Assembly (NCBI GenBank): GCA_903918315.1
Contig: CAIXEA010000128.1
Location: 1-32,799, forward strand
Length of the DNA stretch: 32,799 nt
Direction of reading: 5' to 3'
DNA from: an uncultured Acetobacteraceae bacterium
GTDB lineage: Bacteria; Pseudomonadota; Alphaproteobacteria; Acetobacterales; Acetobacteraceae
Numbering within the stretch: the stretch's first letter is position 1; the number at the start of each line of letters is the position of its first letter. Of the stretch, positions 1,723 through 21,812 are shown piece after piece. Both the position numbers and the translations under genes were made by a program. Below the pieces are notes generated by a model. The model was given only the letters and a program-made list of their open reading frames with translations. It had not been told where the DNA came from and made no database searches.

Positions 1723-1752
1723 CCGCCGCTTCGCTGAGTGCATGTCCGGTGC

Positions 1753-1770
1753 TGTCAGGCGCACCTGACA
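1753..1770. terminator. Hairpin downstream of the hydrolase-like gene
   Basis: TGTCAGG (1753-1759) pairs with CCTGACA (1764-1770) around a four-base loop, 30 bases after the stop codon at 1722. It directly abuts the dispersed repeat starting at 1772. A comparable hairpin adjoins the repeat copy near 12487. No T run follows, so a terminator role is inferred from position between convergent genes. Confidence 0.4.
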
Positions 1771-1771
1771 T

Positions 1772-1840
1772 GCTCTAAGCGATTGTTTGATCGCGTGATT
1801 CACGGCTCCGGTGAGTCCATCTTCGCCGATCACGCTCTAA
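1772..1840. repeat. Dispersed hairpin repeat, copy 1
   Basis: This copy of a roughly 68-bp intergenic element runs from GCTCTAAGCGATTG to CGATCACGCTCTAA. Outer arms GCGTGAT (1793-1799) and ATCACGC (1829-1835) pair, enclosing an inner GGTG-agtc-CATC hairpin. It differs at about five positions from copies at 12418 and 17355, which are identical to each other over 67 bp. Its right end supplies the TAG stop codon (1837-1839, complement) of the ABC ATPase gene. Confidence 0.85.
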
Positions 1841-2922
1841 CCCACCACCACCGCCGATGATGCCGCGAATGACAATCCCACGGTCTTGCCGGGGGCGACG
1901 ACATCCTCTGCCCCGCCGACGACACGCAGCACCAGATCGCCCACCCGCACGTCATAGCGCGCCGAACCGCCAAGAAAGCTGGCGGCGGTGACGGTGCCAT
2001 TCAGCAGAGGCTCATCGGCGAATACGATGCTCTCCGGCCGCACCGATACGGTGGTTGGCTGGCCATCCGCGGCGCCGGCGGGAAACAGGCAGCCGATGCG
2101 GGCACCATCGGTTAGCCGGACGGTGCCGATAGCACCGGGGGCGACGGCGCCGTCGCAGACGCCGGACAGCAGATTGGCCGCACCGATGAAGCTGGCGACG
2201 AACACATTGGCCGGGCGGAAGTAGATCTCCCGCGGGTTGCCCATCTGCACGATGCGGCCTTTCTCCATCACCGCGATCTGGTCCGACATGGCCAGCGCCT
2301 CACTCTGATCGTGCGTGACGTAAATGGTGGTGACGCCGATCTGCTGCTGGAGGCGGCGGAGCTCGATGCGCATTTCTTCGCGGAGCGCGGCATCGAGATT
2401 CGAGAGCGGCTCATCCAGCAGCAGCAGCTTGGGCCGATGCACGATGGCGCGGGCGAGTGCGACGCGCTGCTGCTGGCCGCCGGACAGGCGGGTGGCGGGG
2501 CGATCGCCGTAGCCGGCCAGCCCGACGGTGGCCAGGGCCTGCTCGACCAGGCTGCGTACTTCCTCCTGCCCGGGCCGGGCGCCTTTGGCGACGCGCAGGG
2601 GGAAGGCGATGTTCTCGAACACCGTCATATGCGGCCAGATGGCATAGGACTGGAAGACCATGCCGATACCGCGCTCATTCAACGGCACGGCGGTTTTCGA
2701 CGCGGAATCGAACAGCACCCGGTCGCCGACGGCGATGGTGCCGGCGTCCGGGCGCTCCAGCCCGGCGACGCAGCGGAGCGTGGTGGTTTTGCCGCAGCCG
2801 GATGGGCCCAGCAGGGTAAAGAAGGTGCCCTCGGGCAGGTCGAAGGAGACCTCCCGCACCCCGCCGGCCTGGGTGTCAAAGCGGTTGGCGTAGATCTTGG
2901 TGAGGTCACGCACGGTCAACAT
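1837..2922 (-). CDS. ABC importer ATPase, Fe(III)/polyamine type (FbpC/PotA-like)
   Basis: This cytoplasmic ATPase of 361 residues energises the permease encoded upstream. Walker A is GPSGCGKT at 39-46, the Q-loop glutamine is at 91, the signature LSGGQ at 146-150, Walker B LLLLDE at 166-171 and the switch histidine at 204. The C-terminal 120 residues fit a TOBE-type regulatory domain (VSVRPESI, GTVTAASFLGG). This matches the CUT1/FbpC/PotA group importing iron, polyamines, phosphonates or thiamine; the substrate cannot be read from the sequence. The gene starts three bases after the permease stop. Its TAG stop lies inside the terminus of a dispersed repeat. Confidence 0.93.
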   Translation of the reverse strand: MLTVRDLTKIYANRFDTQAGGVREVSFDLPEGTFFTLLGPSGCGKTTTLRCVAGLERPDAGTIAVGDRVLFDSASKTAVPLNERGIGMVFQSYAIWPHMTVFENIAFPLRVAKGARPGQEEVRSLVEQALATVGLAGYGDRPATRLSGGQQQRVALARAIVHRPKLLLLDEPLSNLDAALREEMRIELRRLQQQIGVTTIYVTHDQSEALAMSDQIAVMEKGRIVQMGNPREIYFRPANVFVASFIGAANLLSGVCDGAVAPGAIGTVRLTDGARIGCLFPAGAADGQPTTVSVRPESIVFADEPLLNGTVTAASFLGGSARYDVRVGDLVLRVVGGAEDVVAPGKTVGLSFAASSAVVVG

Positions 2923-2925
2923 GAG

Positions 2926-4638
2926 CTAATTTCCAAACACGTCGGTGCCGCCGCGGCGGCCTTGCGCGAAGAACAGGCAGGCGATGACGGTCATCAGCAC
3001 GGTCCAGATCAGGCCGAAGGCCGCCAGCTCCCCGCCCTGCCCGTTCACCCATTGGTCGAAGATCGACACGGCGATGACCTGCGAGCCGGGGCTGGCGAGC
3101 AGCACGGCGATGGCGAGTTCCTTGTTGGCGACCAGGAAGATGAACAGCCAGCCGGCGATGATGGCGGGTGAGAGCAGCGGCGCGACGATCCGGCGCAGCG
3201 TGGTCAGGGATCCGGCGCCGGCGACTCCGGCCGCTTCCTCCAGCTCATGATGCAGTTGCAACACGCCGGAATACACGTAGCGCATGCCGTAGGGCATGAA
3301 GCGGATCACGTAAGCGATGGCGATGATCCAGAGCGAGCCGTAGATGGGCAGCGGCACCCGCAGATAGACCTCCATCACCGCGACGCCGAGGCAGATGCCG
3401 GGGAAGACCAGCGACAGCGTGGCGAGCTGATCCAGCAGCCAGCCGCCGGGGCCGCGGCGGGCGGCGATCCAGCCGGCCAGCGCGGTGATGGCCATGATGA
3501 AGGTGGCGGCGGCGGCGGCGACCATCAGGCTGTTGGTGGCGAGCTCCACATAGCCGGGGGCGGTGAAGACGGTGCGGAAGTTCTTCAGCGTCAGCATCGA
3601 CAGGCCGGCGACGCTGAAGCCGCGCAGGAAGGGCAGCAGCGACATCCACAGCAAGGTCAGCATCGGCAGCACCAGCACGATGCAGAAATTGGCGATGATG
3701 ATGGCCCCGGCGATCCAGCGCCCGGCGCCGAGGTCGAAGGGCCTCGGGCGGAAACCCTTGCCGGTGACGGAGTGGTATTTCTCCGCGTTTTTCGAAAGCC
3801 GGCTGTAGAAATACAGCAGCACGGCGACGATCACGACCATCACCACCGAGAAGGCGGCGGCATAGCCGAGGTCGGGGGGGACGACGATCGTCGCCTCATA
3901 GACATCGGTGGTCAGCACGTAGATGCGGCCGGGCATGCCGACCAGGGCCGGGACCTCGAACCCGCCGATTGCGCGGATGAAGACGAACAGGGCCAGGGCC
4001 AGAATGGCGGGCATGGCCAGCGGCAGTGATACCCGGCGCAGGGTTTGCAGCACGGTGGCGCCGCTCATGCGCGCGGCTTCCTCCATATCGGCATTGGCGG
4101 CGCGGAAGGTGCTGCCGAGCAGCAGGAAGACCAGCGGCGACCAGAGAAAGCCCTCGATCAGGATCATCCCGGCCATGGAGTTCACGTTGAACAGATTGGC
4201 CGTGCCGCCGGTGAGCGTGCGGTAGGCATCGTTCAGCGGCCCGATCTTACCCAGCAGGAACAGCCAGGCGATCACATGCAGAATGTAGGGCGTGCCGAGG
4301 GAGATGATGGTCGCGAGATAGGCCAGGATTTTGAAGGGCGCGTTGGTGCGCTCCACCAGCCAGGCCAGCACGCCGCCGACGATCAACGAAAGCGCGGTGC
4401 TGCCGGCGGCGAAGACGAGGCTGTTCCAGATGCTGCGCAGCGCGTCCTTGTCGGTGAACAGCTTTCCGAAGTGCGCCAGGGTGAAGCCGGTGACGTCACC
4501 GATCGCGTCAGTGGTGGTGATGCTGTCTTGCAGCAGGATCCATAGCGGGGGGAGCATCAGGACGGCCAGCACAAGGCCGACCAGCGCCGCGATGACGCGG
4601 CGCATATCCTGGCGCGCCCATGCCAGCGCCCTGTTCAT
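2926..4638 (-). CDS. ABC importer permease, two fused membrane domains (FbpB-like)
   Basis: The 570-residue inner-membrane protein carries two BPD-type permease domains in one chain, with about twelve hydrophobic segments. Each half has an EAA coupling loop, EEAARMSGATVLQTLRR in the first and EEAAGVAGAGSLTTLRR in the second, so one chain replaces the usual pair. This is the FbpB layout. I chose the ATG at 4638 because GAAGGAC lies 7-8 bases upstream; an in-frame ATG at 4662 would add eight residues but lacks a good binding site. It is translated with the ATPase (three-base gap). The two binding proteins at 6078-8134 are probably its partners, separated from it by vapBC and a GFA gene. Confidence 0.92.
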   Translation of the reverse strand: MNRALAWARQDMRRVIAALVGLVLAVLMLPPLWILLQDSITTTDAIGDVTGFTLAHFGKLFTDKDALRSIWNSLVFAAGSTALSLIVGGVLAWLVERTNAPFKILAYLATIISLGTPYILHVIAWLFLLGKIGPLNDAYRTLTGGTANLFNVNSMAGMILIEGFLWSPLVFLLLGSTFRAANADMEEAARMSGATVLQTLRRVSLPLAMPAILALALFVFIRAIGGFEVPALVGMPGRIYVLTTDVYEATIVVPPDLGYAAAFSVVMVVIVAVLLYFYSRLSKNAEKYHSVTGKGFRPRPFDLGAGRWIAGAIIIANFCIVLVLPMLTLLWMSLLPFLRGFSVAGLSMLTLKNFRTVFTAPGYVELATNSLMVAAAAATFIMAITALAGWIAARRGPGGWLLDQLATLSLVFPGICLGVAVMEVYLRVPLPIYGSLWIIAIAYVIRFMPYGMRYVYSGVLQLHHELEEAAGVAGAGSLTTLRRIVAPLLSPAIIAGWLFIFLVANKELAIAVLLASPGSQVIAVSIFDQWVNGQGGELAAFGLIWTVLMTVIACLFFAQGRRGGTDVFGN

Positions 4639-4725
4639 GGTGGTGTCCTTCGCGTTTCCCATTTGGGCATTTCATGCCAAATATGCTGATCGTTGCGGTC
4701 AGCCAAAAGGCGCTGTGATTGTGTT

Positions 4726-5133
4726 TCAGGGCGGCATCCGAGCAAATCGTGGCCGCTGGCTCCCGTCAAGCATCCAAAGCTGGGCGTGATCGCAGAACAC
4801 TTCCATCGTAGGGGCGAACACTGTTGCATCGTCCAATGTGCCCACCAGCACAGCCATACTGCCCGGTCGAGCCGCTGACTGGCTGAACACCCCGGAACCG
4901 CAATGCGGGCAGAAGCGACGATGGAGAATCTGTCCTGACCCGCCCGGCCTGTCGAACGTTTTCAAGGTGCCTTGTATGCTGACGGCACTGGTGGGAAAGC
5001 TCATGAACGGTTCGAATGCGGAACCGGTATGGCGCTGACAGTCCTTGCAGTGACATAGCCCACTCCGCGTTGGTTCCGCAGTTATGGTGTAACGAACCTG
5101 TCCGCAAAGGCATCCACCCGTGACGTTGGCCAT
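4726..5133 (-). CDS. GFA-family (Mss4-like fold) zinc-binding protein
   Basis: This is a small protein of 135 residues with the zinc ligands of the GFA family: C8-L-C10-G, the C27-H-C29-K-D-C32 cluster and C75-P-H-C78-G. Members include glutathione-dependent formaldehyde-activating enzyme and the S-(hydroxymethyl)glutathione synthase group, but most are uncharacterised, so I name only the family. AGGAGGGGGCC immediately precedes the ATG at 5133. It begins 18 bases after the vapC stop, so it is probably co-transcribed with the toxin-antitoxin pair. An 87-base gap separates it from the permease gene downstream. Confidence 0.9.
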   Translation of the reverse strand: MANVTGGCLCGQVRYTITAEPTRSGLCHCKDCQRHTGSAFEPFMSFPTSAVSIQGTLKTFDRPGGSGQILHRRFCPHCGSGVFSQSAARPGSMAVLVGTLDDATVFAPTMEVFCDHAQLWMLDGSQRPRFARMPP

Positions 5134-5151
5134 GGCCCCCTCCTGGTTTTT

Positions 5152-5604
5152 TTATTGCAATCCGGTTTGGGATGATACCCGCCGATCAGGATTTCTGCTA
5201 TCCTCAGGCGGGCCAATCACATCAATCGTTGGGAAATAGTCGCGATACCGCCTCACATCGCGGGTCAACAGCGGCCAACCCGACACGGCGGCGTGGGCGC
5301 CGATAAAGAAATCGGGCAGCACACCGGTTCGCATGCCACCACGGGTACGGTATTGTCGAAACGCCTTCGCCGCCAGAAAAAGCGCCGGGCGGGGAACCGG
5401 TTCCAGCCGCAACCCCATGCCTGAGACCAGATCGTCCAGCGCCTCTATGGCCGGATAGCCGGCCGCCAGTTCGGCATAAACGATATCGTTAATGGCCAAA
5501 GGGCCGGCTATGGCCGCCATTTCCAGATTCCGCAGCGACCACTCGGCCCAGCTTGCGTCGGCCAGTACGACATCAAGAATGACGTTGGTGTCGACCAGCG
5601 TCAT
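5152..5604 (-). CDS. vapC: VapC-type PIN-domain ribonuclease toxin
   Basis: The protein of 150 residues has the acidic residues of a PIN-domain nuclease: D5 in LVDTN, E45 in VYAEL, D98 in VLPDFFIGAHA and D116 in LLTRD. PIN toxins cleave tRNA or rRNA in a metal-dependent way and are held inactive by the partner antitoxin. The ATG at 5604 directly follows the antitoxin stop codon with no gap, the usual coupling of antitoxin before toxin. The C-terminal 20 residues after VIGPPED are polar and probably disordered. Confidence 0.93.
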   Translation of the reverse strand: MTLVDTNVILDVVLADASWAEWSLRNLEMAAIAGPLAINDIVYAELAAGYPAIEALDDLVSGMGLRLEPVPRPALFLAAKAFRQYRTRGGMRTGVLPDFFIGAHAAVSGWPLLTRDVRRYRDYFPTIDVIGPPEDSRNPDRRVSSQTGLQ

Positions 5605-5847
5605 TCATGCCTCGCCACGCGTCAGAGCCATGATGTCATCGGTGGTCATGTTGGATTGAAGGGTGCCGGTAAACCGGGCGAAGCGGCTGGTTTCACGCTG
5701 CGGCCCGACAGCCGCGCCGGCTTTGCGCACGATGATGTCCCCGCTCGGCCCCAAGGTGAACTCGACCTTGCTGCCGGGTCCAATGTCGAGCAGTTCGCGG
5801 ATGGCTTTGGGGATGGTGACCTGACCTTTGGTGGTGATGGCGTTCAT
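5605..5847 (-). CDS. vapB: VapB-type antitoxin, AbrB/MazE-like swapped-hairpin fold
   Basis: The 80-residue protein starts MNAITTKGQVTIPKAIRELL, the signature of the AbrB/SpoVT DNA-binding fold, followed by KVEFTLGPSGDIIVRKA. The C-terminal part (FARFTGTLQSNMTTDDIMALTRGEA) would wrap the VapC partner. I chose the ATG at 5847 because GAGG lies six bases upstream and the AbrB fold begins there; the longer ORF from 5868 would run through the operator palindrome. The protein and toxin complex normally represses its own promoter through such an operator. Confidence 0.92.
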   Translation of the reverse strand: MNAITTKGQVTIPKAIRELLDIGPGSKVEFTLGPSGDIIVRKAGAAVGPQRETSRFARFTGTLQSNMTTDDIMALTRGEA

Positions 5848-5857
5848 GGCGAACCTC

Positions 5858-5887
5858 GGTAATACCATGCCACATTATGGTATTACC
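5858..5887. promoter_or_regulatory. vapBC operator, perfect 11-bp inverted repeat
   Basis: GGTAATACCAT (5858-5868) and ATGGTATTACC (5877-5887) are perfect inverted repeats around an eight-base spacer, 10 bases upstream of the vapB start codon. AbrB-type antitoxins bind such palindromes over their own promoters. The AT-rich arms stand out in GC-rich surroundings. That VapB binds here is inferred from position and symmetry. Confidence 0.8.
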
Positions 5888-5955
5888 CATTTGGATTCAA
5901 CAGACGCAACACCCTGGCGTAGAGTGGTCACATACGCCGCACCCAGGCCAAACCC

Positions 5956-6035
5956 CGCCATCCCCAGGCTTGTCCAGGGGACCCATCGCGGCATGGGCGG
6001 ACACCTTGGTCCCCGGGACAAGCCCGGGGTTATCG
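5956..6035. repeat. REP-like palindromic element, copy 2
   Basis: The left arm at 5956-5983 and right arm at 6008-6035 (GGTCCCCGGGACAAGCCCGG) are inverted repeats of the same family as 816-893, with more divergence in the left arm. It fills most of the 190-base gap between vapB and the second binding-protein gene, which otherwise holds only the operator. Confidence 0.75.
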
Positions 6036-6077
6036 AACATGTGCCCAATGCAATCCCGCCGACACCCGGGGTCCGCC

Positions 6078-7097
6078 TTACCGGAACAGTTCGTGGTACA
6101 GCGCCACCCATTTCGGCAGGTCATCGCGTGCCATGTCGGGGGTCACGACATTGACCTTGAAGCCGCCCGCCTCGGGCTTGTTCTCCGGCACCTTCGCGGC
6201 GATCCGCGGGCTGGCCGGCAGATAGTCGTTGTCGGCCAGCACTTTCTGGCCCTCATCGGACAGCATGAACTCGGTGAACAGCCGCGCCGCGGCCGGATGC
6301 GGGGAGTCCCTGACGATGCTGATCAGGCTCATGGACTGCAACAGCGGCTCCATCTTCAGCCATTTCACCGGCGCGCCCTGACCGATGCTGATGGTCGCAT
6401 GATAATTCAGGATCATGACCGATAGCGGGTATTCGCCCGACACCACCTTATCCAGCACCACCCGCTGGGCGGCGGGGATCACCACAGGCTCCTGCTTCGC
6501 GAAAGCGCGGAGGTAGGCCATCCCCTTCTCCTGCCCCATCGTGGTCAGGATGTTATAAATGAACCCCGGAGGCCCGCCGGGCGTGAGGTCGTAGGTCCAG
6601 GCGATCTGGCCCTTCCAGCGGGGGTTCAGCAGGTCGTCATAGGTTTTCGGCACATCGTCCGGCTTGACCACGTTGGTGTTCACCGCCGCCGTCCAATAAA
6701 ACAGGTTCAGCGCGGTCCAGTGGCCGTTCGTGTCGCGCAACACCTGCGGCCATTCGGCGGCCTGCCGGGGGCGGTAATCGGCCACCAGATTGGCATCCTC
6801 CAGCAGGAATACGGTGTTGGAGCCATCGAACAGGTCCGCCTGCACCCGCCGGGCGCGGGCCTCATTGCGGATCTTCAGCGCCACGTCAGACGATGTGGCG
6901 CGGGAATACTGCACCTTGATGCCGGGATATTTGCGCTCGAACGCCTCACTCATGGGGCGGACGATCTGGTTCACGATCAACGTGCTATACCAAACCACCG
7001 TCCCCTCTTTCTTCGCCGCCTCGACGAGCGCCGGATCGGGCTCCGCCGCCCGGACAACGCCCGAGAGCAGCAACAGAACAGCCAGCAGGGTTTTCAT
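6078..7097 (-). CDS. ABC extracellular solute-binding protein (second of two)
   Basis: This periplasmic binding protein of 339 residues begins with a signal peptide, MKTLLAVLLLLSGVVRAAEP, likely cut after the alanine pair. The mature part begins with DPALVEAAKKEGTVVWYS, typical of family 1/6 Fe(III)- or polyamine-type binding proteins. Later landmarks are FERKYPGIKVQYSR, AVNTNVV, DLLNPRWKGQIAW and FMLSDEGQKVLADNDYLP. It is a clear paralogue of the protein encoded just upstream, and its ATG overlaps that gene's stop by four bases (7094-7097), so both are co-translated. Its permease and ATPase are probably 2926-4638 and 1837-2922. Ligand unknown. Confidence 0.93.
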   Translation of the reverse strand: MKTLLAVLLLLSGVVRAAEPDPALVEAAKKEGTVVWYSTLIVNQIVRPMSEAFERKYPGIKVQYSRATSSDVALKIRNEARARRVQADLFDGSNTVFLLEDANLVADYRPRQAAEWPQVLRDTNGHWTALNLFYWTAAVNTNVVKPDDVPKTYDDLLNPRWKGQIAWTYDLTPGGPPGFIYNILTTMGQEKGMAYLRAFAKQEPVVIPAAQRVVLDKVVSGEYPLSVMILNYHATISIGQGAPVKWLKMEPLLQSMSLISIVRDSPHPAAARLFTEFMLSDEGQKVLADNDYLPASPRIAAKVPENKPEAGGFKVNVVTPDMARDDLPKWVALYHELFR

Positions 7098-8134
7098 CGG
7101 AACACCTCATGATACAGCGCGATCCAGCCGGTAAGGCCTTCGCGGGTGGCGTCGGGGGATATGAAATTGACGGTGAAGTGCCCCGCCTCGGGCTTTAATT
7201 CCGGAATCCGTGCCGGCACATCCGGATCGGCCGGCAGGTAATCATTGGCGGCCATCACCTTCTGGCCCTCGTCCGAGAGGATATATTCCTCCAACAGCCG
7301 CGCCGCGTTCGGGTGCGGGGCGTCTTTCAGGATGCCCATAATGCTGAACATCGCCGGCAGCGGCTCCAGATTGACCGCCTTCACCGGCGCCCCTTGCCGC
7401 GCGCTGATCGCGGCATGGTGGTTGTACATCATGACGCCGATCATGTGCTCGCCGCTGATGACCTGATCAAGGACGGCGCGGGGGGAGGCCGCGACCGATA
7501 CCGGCTCCTGCGCCGCGAATTGCTTCAGATAGGAGCGGCCTTTCTCATCGCCCATGACCGAGAGCACGTTGCGGATGAAGCCGGGCGCGCCCTGGATCGC
7601 CAGTTCCGTCGTCCAGGCCATGTGCCCCTTCCAGCGCGGATCGAGCAAATCCGCGAACGACTTCGGCGCGTCCTCGGCTTTGATGAGGTTGGTGTTGTAG
7701 GCGATGGTCAGGAAATAGAGGTTGCTGGCGGTCCAGAAGCCATTTTTGTCCTTCAGCACGTCCGGGTAATGCATGGCGGCTTTCGGGCGATACTCGGCCA
7801 GCAGTTTGGCGTCGGTCAGAGAATGGATGCCGCTGGTCACATCCACCACATCGGCCTGCACCCGGCGGGCGCGGGCCTCGTTCAGCAGCTTGACCGTGGT
7901 ATCGGTGTTGGACGCGCGGGCGTATTGCACCTTGATGCCGGGGAAGCGCGCCTCAAAGGCTTCCGCCATGGGGCGGGTGATCTGATTGATGATCAGGCCG
8001 GTATACCAGACCGCGGTGCCTTCCTTGCGCGCGCCCTCGACCAGGGCCGGGTCGAAATCGGCCGCGCGCGCCATGGGGGCGGACAACAATGACGCCCCAA
8101 TCAAGACCCAGGCACTATCCTTGGCGCGCATCAT
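7094..8134 (-). CDS. ABC extracellular solute-binding protein (first of two)
   Basis: The 346-residue paralogue of the downstream gene has an N-terminal signal sequence ending near PMARAA, then DPALVEGARKEGTAVWYTG. Landmarks match position by position: FPGIKVQYARASN, AYNTNLI, DLLDPRWKGHMAW, YILSDEGQKVMAANDYLP. AAGGGGG lies just before two consecutive ATGs (8134 and 8131); either may be used. It is probably the first gene of the importer operon, divergent from the aminotransferase gene with a 102-base shared upstream region. The tandem duplication suggests two ligands, or two affinities, for one permease. Confidence 0.93.
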   Translation of the reverse strand: MMRAKDSAWVLIGASLLSAPMARAADFDPALVEGARKEGTAVWYTGLIINQITRPMAEAFEARFPGIKVQYARASNTDTTVKLLNEARARRVQADVVDVTSGIHSLTDAKLLAEYRPKAAMHYPDVLKDKNGFWTASNLYFLTIAYNTNLIKAEDAPKSFADLLDPRWKGHMAWTTELAIQGAPGFIRNVLSVMGDEKGRSYLKQFAAQEPVSVAASPRAVLDQVISGEHMIGVMMYNHHAAISARQGAPVKAVNLEPLPAMFSIMGILKDAPHPNAARLLEEYILSDEGQKVMAANDYLPADPDVPARIPELKPEAGHFTVNFISPDATREGLTGWIALYHEVFR

Positions 8135-8236
8135 TTCCCCCTTATCATCGGCTTGCTGGCATTGTGGGCCCAGGCTCCCGGCGCCTCAAGCCTCAGTCTG
8201 GACCCGCTGCGGGCCCCACTCAGGAAAGAGACCATT

Positions 8237-10491: not shown

Positions 10492-10517
10492 ACCACTCAG
10501 TTCGGCGCAGCACCCTT

Positions 10518-11057: not shown

Positions 11058-11078
11058 GTGCTCAGCAAGGACGACTCC

Positions 11079-11909: not shown

Positions 11910-11966
11910 ACGGGATCGCCACCGGCATGAAGCCGCCAGCACAAACATGGAATGGGGAGCTGACAT

Positions 11967-12398: not shown

Positions 12399-12417
12399 CC
12401 CGCGCCAGCGATCAGAT

Positions 12418-12524
12418 TCTAGAGCGTGATCGGCGGAGGTGGAATCACCGGAGCCGTGAATCACGCGATTAAACAATCGTTTAGAGCCTGTCCGATGCAC
12501 CTTTGTGCACCGGACAGGCTCTAA
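12418..12524. repeat. Dispersed hairpin repeat, copy 2, with an adjoining long hairpin
   Basis: 12418-12487 is the complement of the same 67-bp sequence found at 17355-17422, identical base for base, with stem arms GCGTGAT (12424-12430) and ATCACGC (12460-12466). It is followed by a strong hairpin in which CCTGTCCG (12487-12494) pairs with CGGACAGG (12511-12518), with an inner TGCAC/GTGCA stem. The unit lies between two convergent genes and may end transcription from both. Its terminal GCTCTA gives the TAG stop of the minus-strand gene at 12521. Confidence 0.85.
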
Positions 12525-12859
12525 GGCATGCCGAAGGCATCATTGGCAATCCGGATCAAGGCACCAATATAGGCGGCCGCGTTGTCGGGGTGGTACGCCA
12601 CCCCGATTCCAACGCGATAATCATGGGCGAAGAGGTTGAACTCCTCGATCCCATCCGATTCCGCCAGCCAATTGCAGATACAGCGGTATTCCGCCACCAG
12701 CTTCGCCGCCGCCCCCGTCCGCAGATCATCGGCCAGCGCCTGCAACCGCACCGCCGCCGCCGCGCTGACCGCATCCCCCGGCTCGGCATCGACCTTGCGC
12801 AACCGCCAGGCCGCGGCTGCCTCCAGTTCGTCGGCTTCCGGGCAGTCGCCGTCGCTCAT
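12521..12859 (-). CDS. Small soluble protein of unknown function
   Basis: I do not recognise this 112-residue protein. It starts MSDGDCPEADELEAAAAWRL, has an alanine-rich helical first half, and ends with EYRCICNWLAES, NLFAHDYRVGIGVAYHPD and AAAYIGALIRIANDAFG. I chose the ATG at 12859 because it overlaps the preceding SDR stop as ATGA, implying translational coupling; the longer ORF from 12925 reads through that gene. It is the last gene of the SsuABC-like operon. Its TAG stop is inside the repeat terminus. Confidence 0.7.
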   Translation of the reverse strand: MSDGDCPEADELEAAAAWRLRKVDAEPGDAVSAAAAVRLQALADDLRTGAAAKLVAEYRCICNWLAESDGIEEFNLFAHDYRVGIGVAYHPDNAAAYIGALIRIANDAFGMP

Positions 12860-13641: not shown

Positions 13642-13655
13642 GGGCGATGTCTCCG

Positions 13656-15228: not shown

Positions 15229-16238
15229 TTGTATTTCTTCAGCGCCTCATCGATGAAGTGATTGTCGTAGGTTTTCGTGAGATCGATTTTCGCGTCCTTC
15301 AGATCGGGCTGGAACATCAGGATCGATTGCAGGGCGTTTTTCGACGCCGCCTCCGACACTTTCCCATCGAATTGCATCGAGGCGAGGTTGGCCGCCAGCA
15401 TCTGCCGATACTGCGCCCGATCCTTCACATACTCTCCGGGAACCTTGGCCACGATCTCATCCAGCGGCGTTTTGCCGAGCCAGAGCATCGCCCGCACGGT
15501 CGCGTTCACCACCGCCTGGGTGGTGCGCGGGTTTTTCTGCGCGAAGGCCCAGGTGGTGTAGAGCCCGTCCAACACGTAATCACCGCCATAGGCCGCGATC
15601 GTTCCGGCCTCATCGCGCGCATCCAGCAGCGGCACCACGTCGTCCCACATCTCCGTCGTCGCGGGATCCTGGGTCACCAGCGCGTCCAGTTGCCCCGCCC
15701 GCGCGGCGGCGACAGCGGTGGCGCCGAGACCCACGCCGACATAGGAGGCATCGTCTTTGGTCAGCCCGACTTTCAGCAAGGCCCGCACCGCGAATATCTG
15801 CGTCGCGCTGCCGGGGGCCGACACGCCGATGGATTTGCCCTTCAGATCCTGGACGGTTTTAATCGTCCCGGCTTTGGATTTCGGCACCACCAGCACATAG
15901 CCGGGGTAACGGCTGATGCCGACGATATCGACCATCGCCTGGCCTTTGGCCTGCAAATCGATGGTGTGCTCATAGGCGCCGGCGACGAAGTCGGTATTAC
16001 CCGCGATCAGCGCCTGCGCGCCCTTGGCACCGGAGTTGAAATCGATGAACTCGATGTCCAGGCCTTCATCCTTGTAATAGCCGAGGGCGCGGGCCATGAC
16101 CAAAGGCAGCTTCGCCACCTGGCTGAACAGCCCGCCGGCGCCGATGATGGCATGGGGATGTTCCAAAGGCTCCGCCCGCGCGGCCGCGGCAAGCAGTGAC
16201 AGCGTCGCGGCCAGAATGGCACGGCGGGCAAAAGACAT
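15225..16238 (-). CDS. ABC substrate-binding protein, SsuA/NMT1-like
   Basis: This is a periplasmic binding protein of 337 residues. It starts MSFARRAILAATLSLLAAAARA, a clear signal peptide, then EPLEHPHAIIGAG. GYYKDEGLDIEFIDFNSGAKGAQALIAGNTDFV and LKGKSIGVSAPGSATQ are hallmarks of the SsuA/TauA/NMT1 group, which binds sulfonates, aromatic acids, pyrimidine precursors or nitrate. The ligand cannot be read from sequence. I prefer the ATG at 16238 (GGGGG upstream) over the TTG at 16253. It is first in the operon binding protein-ATPase-permease-SDR-unknown. Confidence 0.92.
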   Translation of the reverse strand: MSFARRAILAATLSLLAAAARAEPLEHPHAIIGAGGLFSQVAKLPLVMARALGYYKDEGLDIEFIDFNSGAKGAQALIAGNTDFVAGAYEHTIDLQAKGQAMVDIVGISRYPGYVLVVPKSKAGTIKTVQDLKGKSIGVSAPGSATQIFAVRALLKVGLTKDDASYVGVGLGATAVAAARAGQLDALVTQDPATTEMWDDVVPLLDARDEAGTIAAYGGDYVLDGLYTTWAFAQKNPRTTQAVVNATVRAMLWLGKTPLDEIVAKVPGEYVKDRAQYRQMLAANLASMQFDGKVSEAASKNALQSILMFQPDLKDAKIDLTKTYDNHFIDEALKKYK

Positions 16239-16298
16239 GGTACGGTCCCCCAACTTTTATTTTGAACATGAGATGCTAGGGATGGGGTCCATCGGCTG

Positions 16299-16856
16299 TC
16301 AACGCGCCCGGGTGGGCGGCGCTGGGCTGGGCGGGTACGCAATCGCCAGAATTTCCATCATCTCGATGCCGCGGGGCGTATGGACCGCCACCTCATCGCC
16401 GACACGGGCCTTGGCTTTGATGAACGCCACCGCGATGGGTGCGGTCAGGCTGACCTTGCCCAGTGCCATATCGGCCTCATCGACCCCCACGATCGTCACG
16501 GTTCGTTCAACATCGGCTTCATCGATATAGGTGACTGTCGCGCCGAAGAAGATGCGGTCGCGCTGGGTTTGCGTCGCGGGATCCACGACCTCCGCGTTTT
16601 CCAGGCGCTTGCCGAGGAAGCGGGTGCGGCGGTCGATCTCCCGCAGGCGGCGCTTGCCGTATTGGTAGTCGGCATTTTCGCTGCGGTCGCCATTGCCGGC
16701 GGCCCAGGACACCACCTCCACCACCCGCGGACGCTCGACCCGGGTCAACTGATCCCGTTCGGCCTTCAGGCGTGCGAAGCCCTCCGGCGTCATGTAAACC
16801 TTGCCGCCCAGCGCCAATTGCGGTGCTTCGTCCGGAAAGTCGGCATCATCATCCAT
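16299..16856 (-). CDS. greB: Transcription elongation factor GreB
   Basis: GreB inserts its coiled coil into the RNA polymerase secondary channel and stimulates cleavage of backtracked RNA. The N-terminal coiled coil includes GDRSENADYQYGKRRLREID, whose tip Asp and Glu position the metal, and the C-terminal FKBP-like domain ends SLTAPIAVAFIKAKARVGDEVAVHTP. The YQYGKRRLREIDRR wording separates GreB from GreA. The ATG at 16856 has AGGA eight bases upstream; the longer ORF to 17006 is antisense to the peptidase gene. Length 185 residues, slightly longer than usual because of an acidic N-terminus. Confidence 0.93.
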   Translation of the reverse strand: MDDDADFPDEAPQLALGGKVYMTPEGFARLKAERDQLTRVERPRVVEVVSWAAGNGDRSENADYQYGKRRLREIDRRTRFLGKRLENAEVVDPATQTQRDRIFFGATVTYIDEADVERTVTIVGVDEADMALGKVSLTAPIAVAFIKAKARVGDEVAVHTPRGIEMMEILAIAYPPSPAPPTRAR

Positions 16857-17336
16857 ATCAGGATCCTCTATGCGGCGTTCGGCATCGCGGCCTTCTGCGG
16901 TGCGGCGCGGGCGCAGCCAGTGCTCACGGTGCCTGTTGTGCCCGCCTGTATATCGTCGCCGTTCGGACCACGCGATGGCGGCGGGCCGCGGGCGTCGCAT
17001 GTCCATACCGGGATCGATTTACCGGCCCCGGCGGGCGCCTGGGTGCGGGCGGCCGCGGCCGGCACGATCACCGCCATCCGGCGCCGCGGTTCGGCCGGGC
17101 TGGAGGTCGAAATCCGCCACGACAGCCATTGGTCAACCCGATACGATCACCTGGGGATGGTCGCCGCCCCGCTGCTGACCGGGCAGCGCAGCCTGGCACA
17201 AGGCGGGTCGATTGGCCGTGTCGGCCGAACCGGCATCACCTATGGCACGCATCTGCATTTTGAGGTGCTCTTCAATGGCACCCCAATCGATCCGACCGGC
17301 CTGCTCGGGCTGTCCCGCTGTGAAAAACGCCGGTGA
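16818..17336 (+). CDS. M23-family peptidoglycan peptidase, non-ATG start
   Basis: The secreted peptidase domain holds the zinc ligands of M23/LytM enzymes: HVHTGIDLPAPAG with His and Asp, and GTHLHFEV with the HxH pair. An N-terminal hydrophobic run IRILYAAFGIAAFCGAARA looks like a signal peptide cut before QPV. No ATG or GTG lies in frame before this run. The nearest candidate is TTG at 16818, giving 172 residues and overlapping the divergent greB start by 39 bases. An ATG at 16870 with AGGA upstream is out of frame. Either TTG is used or there is a 5' frameshift. It probably cleaves peptide cross-links in the cell wall. Confidence 0.8.
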   Translation: MRCFVRKVGIIIHIRILYAAFGIAAFCGAARAQPVLTVPVVPACISSPFGPRDGGGPRASHVHTGIDLPAPAGAWVRAAAAGTITAIRRRGSAGLEVEIRHDSHWSTRYDHLGMVAAPLLTGQRSLAQGGSIGRVGRTGITYGTHLHFEVLFNGTPIDPTGLLGLSRCEKRR

Positions 17337-17354
17337 GAAGCCGGCTTCGGACGG

Positions 17355-17423
17355 GCTCTAAACGATTGTTTAATCGCGTGATTCACGGCTCCGGTGATTC
17401 CACCTCCGCCGATCACGCTCTAA
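17355..17423. repeat. Dispersed hairpin repeat, copy 3
   Basis: This 67-bp copy is identical to that at 12418-12487 in opposite orientation. Stem arms are GCGTGAT (17376-17382) and ATCACGC (17412-17418), with the inner GGTG-attc-CACC hairpin. A short GAAGCCGGCTTC palindrome precedes it. Its right end provides the TAG stop of a small minus-strand gene (17420-17422). Confidence 0.85.
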
Positions 17424-17572
17424 GACGACCAATAGCCCGGCGGCAACCAGACGATCGCGGCAATCACCGTCGATGCCACCACCAGCAATCCCAGGCCGAC
17501 GCAGATCAGGGCCACCAGCCGGTGGGCGTTCTCTTCGCTTTGCGAAGCCCAGTGTTCGATCGCCTTCAGCAC
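17420..17572 (-). CDS. Small single-helix membrane protein (50 residues)
   Basis: From a GTG at 17572, preceded by GAGGG eight bases upstream, the frame reads MLKAIEHWASQSEENAHRL, then about 22 hydrophobic residues (VALICVGLGLLVVASTVIAA), and ends VWLPPGYWSS. It looks like a one-span membrane protein with a polar N-terminal segment. The coherent hydropathy and ribosome binding site support it; I recognise no family. Its TAG stop comes from the repeat end. Confidence 0.55.
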   Translation of the reverse strand: MLKAIEHWASQSEENAHRLVALICVGLGLLVVASTVIAAIVWLPPGYWSS

Positions 17573-17707
17573 GCTGTCAGCCCTCGTTCCACAATAAAAA
17601 GTCGCCCGCGGAGCGTATCAGCCGTTGGGCCCATCGCATCTAACGCTGACACCTAATTGTATACATCTGAGTAAATTTTGTGAATACGGTCTTTTTTAAA
17701 AATCTCT

Positions 17708-18343
17708 TCACGAGCGACTGATCGGCGATTGCGCCCTTGCTTCCTCAACCGCACGGTAAAGATACCAGGTCGCCAGCGATCGGTAGGGGGCCCAGGCCGC
17801 GCCAAGGGCCGCCAGCGCGCGTGGCTTGGGCTGCTCGTCCAGGTTGAACAGAATGCGGTAGCCCTCACGCACGCCGAAATCATCAACTGGCAGCACATCC
17901 GGTCGGCCCAGGGTGAAGATCAACAGCATCTCCACCGTCCAGCGGCCGACGCCGCGAATCGTGGTCAGGCGCGCGATCAGTGCTTCATCCGTCAGCCGGG
18001 CGGACGCGCGGCGGGTTGGGACCGTTCCATCCAGCGTACGCACACAGATGTCGCGGATGGCGGCGATCTTGGCGCCCGAAAACCCGCATCCCCGCAGCAT
18101 CGCTTCATCCGCCGCGAGCACAGCGTCCGGTTGGGGGAACGCATCACCGGGAAACAACGCCTCAAAGCGGGCCAGAATGGCTTCCGCCGCCCGCCCATGC
18201 AGCTGCTGGTGCGCAATGGCACGAACGAGCGCCTCATAGAGGCCACGCTGGCGCTCAACCATCAGGCGCGGCCGACCAACCCGGCTGATCAAGGCCGCGA
18301 AACGCGGTTCGGCGCTGAGATGACGAATGGCTTCCCTGGACAT
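17708..18343 (-). CDS. DNA-3-methyladenine glycosylase II (AlkA-type, HhH-GPD)
   Basis: The 211-residue base-excision enzyme removes alkylated purines from DNA. It has the helix-hairpin-helix LTTIRGVGRWTVEMLLIF near 126-143 and the GPD segment LPVDDFGV, whose second Asp (D155) should be catalytic. IAHQQLHGRAAEAI near 43-56 is the conserved helix that fills the DNA gap in this family. It is short because it lacks the N-terminal AlkA domain of E. coli, like many bacterial DNA glycosylases of this type. It stands alone; about 130 bases upstream of its minus-strand stop (17573-17707) hold no recognised gene. Confidence 0.92.
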   Translation of the reverse strand: MSREAIRHLSAEPRFAALISRVGRPRLMVERQRGLYEALVRAIAHQQLHGRAAEAILARFEALFPGDAFPQPDAVLAADEAMLRGCGFSGAKIAAIRDICVRTLDGTVPTRRASARLTDEALIARLTTIRGVGRWTVEMLLIFTLGRPDVLPVDDFGVREGYRILFNLDEQPKPRALAALGAAWAPYRSLATWYLYRAVEEARAQSPISRS

Positions 18344-18458
18344 GCCTGCATCCTGATTTTGGCCCGCATCCTGACTTTGGAATACGAAGGCGGCAACCAG
18401 TCCTTGCCGCCATACCCTCCCATACGGTTAAGTGCGCGGGTAAGTCGATGGACGGCCG

Positions 18459-18668
18459 ATGCGACATCCCTTTTTCCCGCTGACCGAGGCCCAGGCGCGC
18501 GAGCAGGAAAACCGTCAGACCAATGGATTGGCGGCCGTGGCGGCCGTGCTGCTCCTGTTGGTCGCGGGGCTATGGCTGGTCCATGCCTTGCATCGCTCAT
18601 CGCGACTTGAAGATTGCCTGATGTCGGGCCGGACGAATTGCTATCCGATCGACCTGAGCCACGCGTAG
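18459..18668 (+). CDS. Small one-span membrane protein with CLxSGRxNC motif
   Basis: The 69-residue protein has a polar N-terminus MRHPFFPLTEAQAREQENRQ, one hydrophobic helix (GLAAVAAVLLLLVAGLWLVHAL) and a short tail LEDCLMSGRTNCYPIDL. The paired cysteines suggest a disulphide outside the membrane. I have seen similar CL-SGR-NC tails in small proteins of related bacteria but know no function. The ribosome binding site is weak. Confidence 0.65.
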   Translation: MRHPFFPLTEAQAREQENRQTNGLAAVAAVLLLLVAGLWLVHALHRSSRLEDCLMSGRTNCYPIDLSHA

Positions 18669-18751
18669 AGTCTTTTTCCGCACCTCTGCGATTGACGTCC
18701 GGCCTCAGCAAGGCGACCGTTGGGGCCAACGACACAGCACGGGGGCAGCGT

Positions 18752-19447
18752 ATGCGTATCGCCGATATGGACTGGCGCATGGTGGAGGATTGGACCCGCC
18801 ATGACGATCGTTGCGTTCTGCCCATCGGCAGCACCGAACAGCATGCCGGCCTGTCGCTGGCCACCGACGCGATCAACGCCGAACGCGTTGCCCTGGAAGC
18901 CGCGGAGCCGCTGGGCATTCCGGTCTTTCCCGTGCTGTCCTATGGGCTGACGCCCTATTTTTCCGATTACCCCGGCACGGTGACGCTGCGCCTGGCGACC
19001 TATGCCGCCTTGCTGCGCGATATCCTCGACAGTCTCAAACACGCCGGATTCCGGCGCATCCTGATCGTCAACGGGCATGGGGGCAATCAACCGGCCTCCG
19101 TGCTGGCCCAGGAATGGATGATGGACAACCCGGACTCACGCGTTCGCGTGCACGACTGGTGGCGTGCCCCCAAAACCTGGGCCGCGGTTCAAAGCGTCGA
19201 TCCCGTGGCCACCCATGCCAGCTGGATGGAAAACTTCCCCTGGACGCGCCTGCCCGGCTCAACCCCGGCCCCCGACGCGAAGGACACGGTCGATACGGAT
19301 CGCATGCGCACGATGGCGCCCTTTGAAGTCCGCCTTCTACTGGAGGATGGCAGCTTCGGTGGTGCGTATCAGCGCGATGATTCGGATATGCGGGCGATCT
19401 GGGCCGTCGCGGTCGAGGAAACCCGCGCCCTGCTGGATAACTGGTAA
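18752..19447 (+). CDS. Creatininase-family metal-dependent amidohydrolase
   Basis: This enzyme of 231 residues has the metal ligands of the creatininase fold: E29 and H31 in GSTEQHAG, D39 in LATDA, H109 in VNGHGGN and E160 in HASWMEN. The family hydrolyses amide bonds in creatinine and, in other members, formamide or cofactor-precursor intermediates. The exact substrate is open. I chose the ATG at 18752 (GGGGG upstream and the fold begins at once) over ORF starts from 18614. It precedes the isonitrile-hydratase-like gene by six bases, so the pair is co-transcribed. Confidence 0.9.
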   Translation: MRIADMDWRMVEDWTRHDDRCVLPIGSTEQHAGLSLATDAINAERVALEAAEPLGIPVFPVLSYGLTPYFSDYPGTVTLRLATYAALLRDILDSLKHAGFRRILIVNGHGGNQPASVLAQEWMMDNPDSRVRVHDWWRAPKTWAAVQSVDPVATHASWMENFPWTRLPGSTPAPDAKDTVDTDRMRTMAPFEVRLLLEDGSFGGAYQRDDSDMRAIWAVAVEETRALLDNW

Positions 19448-19453
19448 CCCCGC

Positions 19454-20158
19454 ATGCCCCCCCTGCGCATCGGCCTGCTGCTCTTCCCCGATCTGACGCA
19501 ACTCGACCTGACCGGACCCTTTGAAGTGTTCGCCAAACTACCGGGCGCGGATGTTCGCCTGCTCTGGAAAACGCTGGAACCGGTGCGCGCGGAAACCGGG
19601 ATGCGGATCCTGCCGGATACGACCCTGGCGGATTGCCCCAGGCTGGATGTCCTGGTCGTCCCGGGCGGCCCGGGCGTGGCCGCGCTGATGGAAGATCCCG
19701 ACATCCTGGATTTCCTGCGCCACCAGGCCGGGCAGGTGCGCTATCTCAGCTCGGTTTGCACCGGTTCGCTGGTGCTGGGCGCCGCGGGCCTGCTGCGCGG
19801 CAAACACGCGACATCGCATTGGAGCGCGAAAGATCTGCTGGCCCAGTTCGGCGCGATCCCGACCGAGGGACGCGTCGTGCGCGATGGTTCGTTGATGACC
19901 GGCGGCGGCGTCACGGCCGGAATTGATTTCGCTTTGACCATGGTCGCCGAACTGGCCAGCCCAGCCGTCGCGCAGGGCATTCAGCTTGTCATCGAATATG
20001 CGCCGGCCCCGCCCTTCGACGCCGGATCCCCCGATACCGCGCCGGCCGAAGTGGCCGCCGCCATCCGGGCCCGCGGCGCCAATATGCGCGCCATGCGCGA
20101 AGCCCTGGTCGCCCGCGTCACCGCGGGATGGCCATCGCCTGGCATAAGCAACGGGTAG
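19454..20158 (+). CDS. inhA: DJ-1/PfpI-superfamily protein, isonitrile hydratase-like
   Basis: The 234-residue protein closely resembles the isonitrile hydratase of Pseudomonas as I remember it: LLFPDLTQLDLTGPFEV with Asp18 near the active site, the nucleophile elbow SSVCTGSLVLGAAGLL with C102, LLTGGG-like MTGGGVTAGIDFAL, and EYAPAPPFDAGSPDTAP. Isonitrile hydratase converts isonitriles to N-formamides. An adjacent creatininase-family amidohydrolase could then hydrolyse the formamide, which is an inference from context. It lacks the AraC helix-turn-helix of related regulators. The start is six bases after the previous stop. Confidence 0.88.
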   Translation: MPPLRIGLLLFPDLTQLDLTGPFEVFAKLPGADVRLLWKTLEPVRAETGMRILPDTTLADCPRLDVLVVPGGPGVAALMEDPDILDFLRHQAGQVRYLSSVCTGSLVLGAAGLLRGKHATSHWSAKDLLAQFGAIPTEGRVVRDGSLMTGGGVTAGIDFALTMVAELASPAVAQGIQLVIEYAPAPPFDAGSPDTAPAEVAAAIRARGANMRAMREALVARVTAGWPSPGISNG

Positions 20159-20235
20159 AACACAGGATCAAACCGAAGCACGGCGCGCGCTTTGCTTCAA
20201 ACCTGATCGCGTGAGTCCGGCCGGATGCTCCGGTG

Positions 20236-20589
20236 TCAGGACTCCGCCTCGTGCGCGGCCACGATAACCAAGCGGCGGGCCAGGCGCAGCAGCGTCTGAC
20301 GATCGTCCGGCGCGCAGGCGCGGTACAGGCGAACAAGCGCGAGTTCATCGCCCTGCTGGACCTCCAGTGGTGCCTGCTTCGCAGCCCCGTACATCAGATA
20401 TTCGACCCCAATCTCCAGGCAGGCGGCGATACGCGTCAGATTGCCGGTGATCTGCCCCGCGCGCCCGGTTTCCCACTGCGCCACCGCGCTGCGAGACACA
20501 CCGACCGCCTGCGCGAGCTGGTGCTGGGTCCAGCCACGCTCTTCGCGGATGGCTTTGATGCGGGCGCCGATATCGATGGGATTGCTCAT
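20236..20589 (-). CDS. XRE-family helix-turn-helix repressor
   Basis: The 117-residue regulator has a Cro/cI-type helix-turn-helix, IGARIKAIREERGWTQHQLAQAVGVSRSAVAQWETGRAG, near 7-45, continuing through NLTRIAACLEIGVEYLMYG. The rest is a helical tail without a known sensor domain. A TATACT box lies only seven bases before the ATG and no ribosome binding site is visible, suggesting a leaderless message, as for lambda cI. It is divergent from the GcrA-like gene, which it may control. Confidence 0.9.
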   Translation of the reverse strand: MSNPIDIGARIKAIREERGWTQHQLAQAVGVSRSAVAQWETGRAGQITGNLTRIAACLEIGVEYLMYGAAKQAPLEVQQGDELALVRLYRACAPDDRQTLLRLARRLVIVAAHEAES

Positions 20590-20596
20590 ACGAGTT

Positions 20597-20626
20597 AGTA
20601 TAATTCAACCACCCCTAACAAATCCA
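20597..20626 (-). promoter_or_regulatory. Putative promoter of the XRE repressor
   Basis: TATACT on the minus strand (20602-20597) lies seven bases before the ATG at 20589, so transcription should begin at or beside the start codon. A weak -35-like TGGATT lies 18 bases further upstream (20626-20621). GTTAG (20594-20598) and CTAAC further upstream form a loose inverted repeat that could be an operator. Confidence 0.4.
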
Positions 20627-20867
20627 CTTTTTTCTCTCTCAGGGCACCGCCCGTGCGGGATCAGCGGCTGATCCAGCAAATGCCACGCGCGGGACGGGCA
20701 ACGGCGGATTGTTTGCGCGATCACCGGGTGCCGGGACCGGATTCGGCAAACCCGGCACCGGCGCCTGTCATAAAAAATCACATCCATAGTTATTTTTATT
20801 GACTAATCATGCCACGATCACTAACGTCCGCATCGTTCTTATTATGTTCTCGTCCGCGGAGGATGCC

Positions 20868-21164
20868 ATGCCCAAAAAGCTCGATTGGACCGAAGCTCAG
20901 GACGCCACGATCAAACGCCTTCGCGCCGAAGGCGCGACCTGGGACAGCATCGCCGCTGTGCTCCAATTCACCCGCTGGACGGTCATCGAGCGCGGGCGGC
21001 GTATCGGCGCGCGCCCCCCGCCGCCCGGTTTCACGCAGCCGCCAGACGATCCCAATCGTGACCCGCTTCCCGCCGGCCATGCCCGCAGCTGGGACGCGCT
21101 GGTCCGGGGCACCAGCCTCGAAGGCGCACCCTACGACCAGCCCAACCTTCGTGGTCACGCCTAG
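20868..21164 (+). CDS. GcrA-like small DNA-binding protein
   Basis: The 98-residue protein has an N-terminal helix-turn-helix, LDWTEAQDATIKRLRAEGAT then WDSIAAVLQFTRWTVIERGRRIGA, like the N-terminus of GcrA-type regulators of alphaproteobacteria; the rest (PPPPGFTQPP, GHARSWDALV) is proline-rich and probably disordered. GGAGGA (20858-20863) lies four bases before the ATG. The full-length GcrA C-terminal zinc domain is missing, so it is a short relative. The TAG stop at 21162 opens the tandem repeat. Confidence 0.8.
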   Translation: MPKKLDWTEAQDATIKRLRAEGATWDSIAAVLQFTRWTVIERGRRIGARPPPPGFTQPPDDPNRDPLPAGHARSWDALVRGTSLEGAPYDQPNLRGHA

Positions 21165-21280
21165 AGCGTGCCTGATCGCGGGATTCAGACCTCCGGTGAG
21201 TCCACCTCCGGTCATCCCGCTCTTGTCTGATCGCGGGATTCAGACCTCCGGTGAGTCCACCTCCGGTCATCCCGCTCTTA
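21162..21280. repeat. Tandem pair of dispersed hairpin repeats (copies 4 and 5)
   Basis: Two identical 53-bp units (21172-21224 and 21227-21279) follow each other with a 55-bp period, preceded by TAGAGCGTGC. Stem arms are GCGGGAT/ATCCCGC in both units (21178-21184 with 21214-21220; 21233-21239 with 21269-21275), enclosing GGTG-agtc-CACC. They belong to a second subfamily of the repeat at 1772, 12418 and 17355. They fill the gap between the GcrA-like and DUF6362-like genes. Confidence 0.85.
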
Positions 21281-21291
21281 TAGGAACCCGC

Positions 21292-21744
21292 ATGACCGTC
21301 ACCGAACACAGCATCGATGCCGACTTCGTCGTCTATCGATTGGAGGAAGCCGGCATGACATTGCTGGCATTGCCCGGGACCGGCTGGACCACGCGGCTGC
21401 GCAGTTCATCGTTGGAGATCGTCCGAACCGCGGTGGAAGCCTATGGCTGGACGGAGGGCCGGATCCGTCCGCCAGCGCCATCATCGGCCAAAATCACGCG
21501 GATGGATGAAGCGATGGGCTTGATCCCGTTGATACCGCTGGATCGCTATGTGCTCCGCCGGGTTGTCGGCGCGCGCAGCCTGGTTCACCCCATCACCGAC
21601 CGCCATTTATTCCCATGGCGTCGGCTGGGGGCCGCACTGGGCGCGGATCACAAAGCCGTCCAACGCTGGCACGCCCAGGGGATCGCCCTGATCGTTCAGG
21701 CGTTAGAGCGTGATAACAAGATGGCGCCCCACATATCGGCGTGA
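21292..21744 (+). CDS. DUF6362-like protein, possible phage-derived
   Basis: The 150-residue protein resembles the DUF6362 family as I remember it: an N-terminal helix (VYRLEEAGMTLLALPG), VRTAVEAYGWTEGRIRPPAPSSAKITRMDEAMGLIPLIP, and a C-terminal helix-turn-helix-like WRRLGAALGADHKAVQRWHAQGIALI. Members occur mostly in alphaproteobacterial prophages, and their role is unknown. AGGA (21282-21285) lies seven bases before the ATG at 21292. It is in line with the GcrA-like gene, separated by the repeat pair. Confidence 0.75.
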   Translation: MTVTEHSIDADFVVYRLEEAGMTLLALPGTGWTTRLRSSSLEIVRTAVEAYGWTEGRIRPPAPSSAKITRMDEAMGLIPLIPLDRYVLRRVVGARSLVHPITDRHLFPWRRLGAALGADHKAVQRWHAQGIALIVQALERDNKMAPHISA

Positions 21745-21759
21745 CACACGCGATCAAGC

Positions 21760-21812
21760 CTGAGAGCGGGAGTCAGACCTCGGGTGAGTCCACCGACGGT
21801 CATCCCGCTCTA
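21760..21812. repeat. Dispersed hairpin repeat, copy 6
   Basis: This is a diverged copy of the second subfamily, with arms GCGGGA (21766-21771) and TCCCGC (21803-21808) and the inner GGTG-agtc-CACC hairpin intact. It differs from the tandem units in the bases outside the stem. It lies between convergent genes, and its final CTA is the complement of the TAG stop of the cupin gene. Confidence 0.8.

Follow-up and report, generated by a model that had tools for sequence, protein, structure and literature searches.

Repeat termini that supply the stop codons of unrelated genes in an Acetobacteraceae genome: a probable miniature mobile element with an IS630-family partner

Introduction

Among the miniature inverted-repeat transposable elements (MITEs), Nezha is linked to the insertion sequence (IS) family IS630. 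It is named as a MITE in a study of GTAG-tagged repetitive extragenic palindromes (REPs), the termini of which often provide the TAG stop codon of flanking open reading frames (ORFs) (Di Nocera et al. 2013, PMC3733652). RUP is another IS630-linked MITE, paired with IS630-Spn1 (PMC2229807), and for ISY100, a member of the IS630 family, duplication of the TA dinucleotide was reported in vitro (PMC2170065). MITEPsy1 is a 100-bp, IS5-like MITE with CTAG or YTAA as the target and a 4-bp duplication (PMC3189936). The CcrM-associated intergenic repeats (CIR) are described as high-copy sequences of about 110 bp, built of two hairpin arms and a linker, with GANTC at one terminal loop and TA at the termini (Delihas, PMC2229807); the table of that review gives them neither a terminal inverted repeat nor a known duplication, and in its text the question of their mobility stays open. 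In this work we analyse a dispersed repeat with TAGAGC/GCTCTA tips from an uncultured Acetobacteraceae bacterium, starting from a stretch of 32,799 nucleotides (contig CAIXEA010000128.1, hereafter the window) and extending to the whole genome and its relatives. Genes that reach the ends of this repeat stop, almost without exception, at its terminal codon. We regard the repeat as a probable non-autonomous MITE with CIR-like architecture, which a transposase of the IS630 (Tc1/mariner) family would have spread and which gathers on stop codons.

Results

Repeat termini coincide with stop codons

Allowing up to two mismatches, we counted 105 occurrences of the core pattern of the repeat in the genome (5.04 Mb, 241 contigs) and none of the reversed pattern that served as a control, hence the repeat is not a product of chance. 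With up to three mismatches, at least 107 copies were counted in the regions fetched around copies among the 100 places listed. Two subfamilies were distinguished. Subfamily A, about 104 bp long, is composed of two hairpins, left and right, with a linker between them, and carries TAGAGC/GCTCTA at either end; subfamily B is a unit of 55 or 62 nt, often found in tandem and related to the right arm of A.

Genes around the copies were called with a trained codon-usage caller, and the termini were scored twice. The first scoring was blind to stops beyond +110, the second was separate, had a range to +900 and, for the B copies, covered the right termini. Seven right termini too close to contig ends, inner tandem units and the left ends of B copies were left out before counting. 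According to the first scoring, 40 of the 57 testable A copies have a terminus exactly at the stop of a called gene, as do 13 of the 32 B copies, and one single gene stops inside an A element. Both ends of A are used: a called stop coincides with 20 of the 42 left termini and with 22 of the 51 right ones, including three that are one base off yet still give TAG or TAA. In the second scoring, 37 of the 39 genes reaching an A terminus, and all of those reaching a right B terminus (12/12), stop at the terminal TAG or TAA, compared to the one third expected to be in phase by chance. The excess of in-frame terminal stops is present among the copies collected across the genome, a collection which the initial annotation had proposed to assemble and to examine for the frame of the nearest stop. 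The two exceptions are the right end of L070, where the terminal TAG is mutated to TGG, and the left end of L038, where the frame reads through. At the latter locus (positions ~2014-2119) a strongly coding frame crosses the left tip out of phase, possibly as part of a truncated or fused gene.

Two other species of the genus exhibit the same phase relation, with stops considered to +110. A terminus lies at a stop in 11 of 15 elements in G015 and in 9 of 19 in G030, and genes that reach a terminus are in phase in 12/12 and 10/10 cases, respectively (22/22 jointly). In G028, no recognisable right arm was seen in nine regions.

Orthologous gene ends

Altogether, 51 gene ends were searched for in the closest relative, G026, and 39 of them were found in the regions fetched. 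The stop lies at the same codon in 26 of the 39 (nine TAG, nine TAA and eight TGA, i.e., TAA or TAG in 18/26) and at a different position in the other 13. At least 24 of these 26 orthologues have no similar tip at the stop; the orthologues for L085 and L072 carry one at their own stop, and for L085 and L064 the aligned part breaks off 25-40 nt short of the stop codon, which makes its placement weak. The comparison of orthologous ends, also envisaged in the initial annotation, reveals an unmoved stop in the majority of genes. The ABC transporter ATPase gene of the window is a case in point: its G026 counterpart has TAG at the same codon and no element (by eye, L187). From these comparisons, most insertions left the encoded protein unchanged. 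A contig scan with the ABC ATPase, a poorly suited query, returned only distant homologues, and loci L106-L185 were left out of the analysis. The orthologous intergenic regions of G026 are too diverged for the exact duplication to be read from them.

It could be argued that the elements truncate or extend genes, the tip TAG being merely the first stop met, and both the 13 ends that differ in position and the read-through at L038 would agree with that. Such a process predicts about one third of the genes in phase, against the 37/39 observed, and is at odds with the 26 ends unchanged in G026; being contradicted for most copies, it appears extremely improbable as an explanation.

Target site

TA is found at both tips in 25 A copies, whereas 15 others with a left arm have an altered tip. 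The strict target count left out 17 A copies without a left arm, the 15 with a changed tip and two at an edge. In 24 of the 25 copies with both tips intact, YTA stands outside the left end and TAR outside the right end, in support of the earlier suggestion that the element targets YTAR-like sites, stop codons included. For all intact-tip termini at stops (21/21), an A or a G follows the far TA, giving TAA or TAG as the rebuilt codon. A looser reconstruction, in which intact tips were not required, placed YTAR-like sites at no fewer than 24 of 26 copies at stops and at 10 of 12 others, and no consensus wider than YTAR was seen in the flanks. Set against TAA or TAG at the same codon in G026, the rebuilt codon agrees in six cases (L052, L040, L037, L027, L015 and L006) and differs in three (L065, L061 and L057).

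The flank pairs of the 25 copies fit a shared TA, the direct empty site coming from an IS630 relative only (see below). The initial annotation had likened the target to that of IS5-group elements. A 4-bp YTAR duplication by an element of this group would indeed account for the target, and the genome itself harbours an IS5-type (DUF4096) element, L293, with TTAG on both sides (by eye). Equal 4-bp flanks are, however, possible in just 6 of the 25 intact-tip copies, and an IS630 element with the same tip as the repeat has an empty site with TA duplication; the likeness to IS5 does not hold, and a 4-bp duplicating element is a very improbable source. L293 was rejected as a mobiliser, since its tips are unlike those of the repeat.

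YTAR outside the repeats was counted in 247 kb, the background being the regions around the repeats and not the whole genome. There are 79 such sites in 222 kb of coding sequence, 93 in 24.6 kb of intergenic sequence and 25 at stops.

A candidate mobiliser

Transposases with Y1_Tnp and DDE_3 domains were searched for across the genus, and those with DUF4096 in the own genome only. DDE_3 was detected in 28 of 31 genomes of the genus. In G026 we identified an IS630-family element (L299) of 1060 bp, including both TAs, with two ORFs that have matches to DDE_3 (1.5e-32) and to a helix-turn-helix domain. Its left tip, TAGAGCGTGATCG, is the same as the right tip of the repeat over 13 bases, and its right tip agrees over 11. 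The element interrupts a second transposase gene (DDE_Tnp_1 1.5e-8; taken for an IS5-type one) at its TAA stop. The empty site is L331, an intact further copy of this gene end in G026, which is identical in 180/182 positions (99%) to the joined L299 flanks with one TA. The empty site reads ...TTCACGT-TA-AGACTTTT... and the filled one ...TTCACGT-TA[GAGCGTGATT...CGATCACGCTC]TA-AGACTTTT...; the insertion of L299 thus duplicated TA and turned TAA into TAG. The shared tips lead us to infer that transposases of this family mobilise the short repeat as well.

Another TAGAGC-tipped IS630 element (G010, L303, 8-946) follows an IS110-type transposase frame (DEDD_Tnp_IS110 7e-30) that ends at the terminal TAG. 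For the IS630 insertions L303 and L300, the joined flanks yielded no continuous gene.

Another candidate identity is that of a GTAG-type REP, mobilised by a REP-associated tyrosine transposase (RAYT, Y1_Tnp): the repeat is short, palindromic and situated near gene ends, and TAG stops are reported for GTAG REPs (PMC3733652). No Y1_Tnp was found in the own genome, and among the genus Y1_Tnp occurs in 5/31 genomes, 0/5 of which have a repeat match. RAYT was rejected as a mobiliser on these grounds, and such an origin is scarcely credible.

Structure, subfamilies and spread

The A consensus (106 nt) folds into two arms (z -8.7), with a hairpin that begins at the stop, and a single B unit folds weakly (z -2.0). 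Across 37 A copies pairing is retained in 94.4% of cells. Compensatory two-sided changes affect five left-arm pairs and none in the right arm; the left-arm pairs of columns 1-44 and 13-32 are broken in 16/37 and 15/37 copies, correspondingly. The right arm of A contains two GANTC sites, the first intact in 56/56 copies and the second, which straddles the loop, in 53/56.

Repeat matches occur in 21 of 58 relatives, namely in 21 of the 32 other genomes sampled of the same genus and in 0/26 outside it. The right arm had no exact match in viral contigs, nor did plasmids yield any match when searched with the element for distant similarity. In G015 (L253-L266) the left arm is a different palindrome and the right arm and the tips are retained, so the arms seem to be exchanged as modules. 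Judged by eye, the TCAAGTTGAC of G015 is similar to the internal portion of the ends of the G026 IS630 element.

Head-to-tail arrays of three to four B units with 55- or 62-nt spacing are present at L092 (C62:53650-53834) and L089 (C187:13691-13834). The left tips of L095, L054 and L069 have an extra base after TAG (TAGCAGCC, TAGGAGCC), and those of L054 and L069 still give the stop of a gene. Several contigs (C19, C31, C112, C197 and C241) start inside or beside a repeat copy, near the first base, thus the assembly seems to be broken at the repeats.

Repeat copies in the window

The window contains the five TAGs pointed out in the initial annotation, at 1837-1839 (-), 12521-12523 (-), 17420-17422 (-), 21162-21164 (+) and 21810-21812 (-). 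A sequence check confirmed that a repeat copy contributes each of them as its outer trinucleotide, in frame with an open frame. The codon-usage caller accepted four of the five frames as genes, among them the one ending at 21164 with a low score (17), and passed over the short frame at 17420.

The first copy is a two-arm A element (1736..1839, +) with a mutated left tip (GAGTGC), and its right tip GCTCTA makes up the TAG of the ABC transporter ATPase gene (1837..2922, -), a name borne out by ABC_tran (5.7e-35). A complete A element follows (12420..12523, -), with TA at 12420-12421 and 12522-12523; its left tip, in element orientation, is the TAG of a gene of unknown function (12521..12859, -). 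The third copy is the right half of an A element with a degenerate left arm (17361..17422, +), at the right tip of which ends a short open frame of 52 codons (17420..17578, -; start not determined) that appears hydrophobic by eye. The converging-gene scan at this copy chose a different ORF, with an end 288 nt off.

Two tandem B units with 55-nt spacing (21162..21279, +) provide, by the TAGAGC tip of the first unit, the stop of an ORF with a low coding score (20844..21164, +), and a further B unit (21751..21812, +) ends by its right tip the cupin gene (21810..22241, -), the identity of which is backed by Cupin_2 (1.9e-9). The name 'GcrA-like', given earlier to the frame ending at 21164, finds no support: neither this frame, nor the one at 17420, nor the protein of unknown function (12521) has a Pfam match at E<=0.01. 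At gathering scores, Rfam gave no match in the window. Additionally, positions 822-887 and 6003-6029 hold a short palindromic repeat of another kind (TTGGTCCCCGGGACAAGCCCGGGG), which has no sequence relation to the TAGAGC repeats.

Discussion

The likely course of events may be outlined as follows. The element proper, GAGC...GCTC, would insert into the TA of a YTAR tetranucleotide, with duplication of TA. Wherever this TA opens a stop codon of the TAA or TAG type, the first base of the element, a G on both strands, would complete a new TAG, and the protein would keep its length. Insertions elsewhere in genes or in promoters would be lost and, as YTAR is rare in coding sequence and dense at stops in this GC-rich genome, the surviving copies would collect on stop codons. 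Survival rather than function would, by this inference, explain most of the stop preference.

A number of observations weigh against this explanation. The 40/57 A elements at stops were compared with the 25 stop YTARs and with either 59 sites in 3' intergenic sequence or 78 in all intergenic sequence between called genes. Stops are used beyond the YTAR supply, with an odds ratio of 5.6 versus 3' intergenic sites (Fisher p 2.8e-6) and of 7.3 versus all intergenic ones (Fisher p 1.8e-8), and neutral survival alone may be insufficient to produce such an excess. Stops at element sites are less conserved in G026 (26/39) than those of control genes away from elements (same codon in 19/22), the controls being filtered for good alignments and the element sites unfiltered. 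Of the 26 stops that G026 has at the same codon, eight read TGA and offer no TA site, and control genes with a TAA or TAG stop of their own retained TAA or TAG in 7/7 cases. L038 was entered by a coding frame out of phase, and in G018 none of four elements (0/4) lies at a stop. As for the partner, the search of the own genome for a DDE_3 transposase was negative, so that it is absent there now or falls in a gap, and TAGAGC tips occur in only 3/32 of the IS630-type loci examined. The left tip of the repeat shares only six bases with L299, which lowers our confidence in the IS630-driven spread slightly.

The over-use of stops leads to the question of function, as selection might preserve at these sites an element that unites stop codon and 3' hairpin and acts in transcript end formation, mRNA protection or ribosome stalling. 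A role of this type was proposed for stop-proximal REPs, and E. coli REPs located within 15 nt of the stop are reported to stall ribosomes (PMC12306157). The very stable A fold that starts at the stop and the compensatory changes at five left-arm pairs are consistent with it. Against it stand the lack of preference for either end (20/42 left versus 22/51 right termini), the weak fold of the B unit and the confinement of matches to just 21 of the 32 other genomes of the genus; furthermore, the 26 orthologous genes keep the same end, 24 or more of them without a similar tip. Moreover, palindromes serve transposition too, so that stable hairpins do not discriminate between the two explanations. 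The initial annotation had offered selection for a combined stop and transcript end as its second reading; stop use above the YTAR supply speaks in its favour, while survival is favoured for most of the preference, and overall we regard selection as unlikely. We would give similarly limited credence to a wider proposal, in which the element is either steered to stops by termination, transcript-end or supercoiling features, or kept there as a stop plus 3' hairpin, with GANTC methylation as a link to the cell cycle.

The favoured explanation, spread by an IS630-family transposase combined with survival at stops, amounts to a simple rule: a TA-targeting element with G as its first base can enter TAA or TAG and leave the protein unchanged. 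It also gives a quantitative account of why the gene ends of a GC-rich genome are so densely occupied by short repeats. In a literature that was for the most part considered in extracts, we found no account that pairs a CIR-like anatomy with an IS630-type partner and documents, within one genome, the empty site of an insertion into a stop codon.

The supply of stop codons as such is a variant of something known. The initial annotation was mistaken in assuming that no described family behaves in this manner, as the termini of GTAG REPs likewise supply the TAG of flanking genes and lie near their 3' ends; those REPs differ in sequence and in transposase class (RAYT), and no TA duplication is stated in the considered parts of their description (PMC3733652). 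MITEPsy1 is comparable in its length of about 100 bp and in a similar target, but is IS5-like and has a 4-bp duplication. The IS630-linked MITEs RUP and Nezha are closer, being short, devoid of genes, directed to TA and sharing tips with an IS630 element, whereas the present repeat has a two-arm structure with GANTC and copies concentrated exactly on stops. By anatomy the repeat matches the description of CIR, with two arms and a linker in about 104 bp, GANTC at the loop, TA tips and a high copy number. This likeness is one of described anatomy. Unlike in the description of CIR, the two outer ends of the present repeat agree with one another over TAGAGC, and a related IS630 element was identified, which provides a candidate mobiliser for CIR-like repeats, the mobility of which was called unresolved in the review (PMC2229807).

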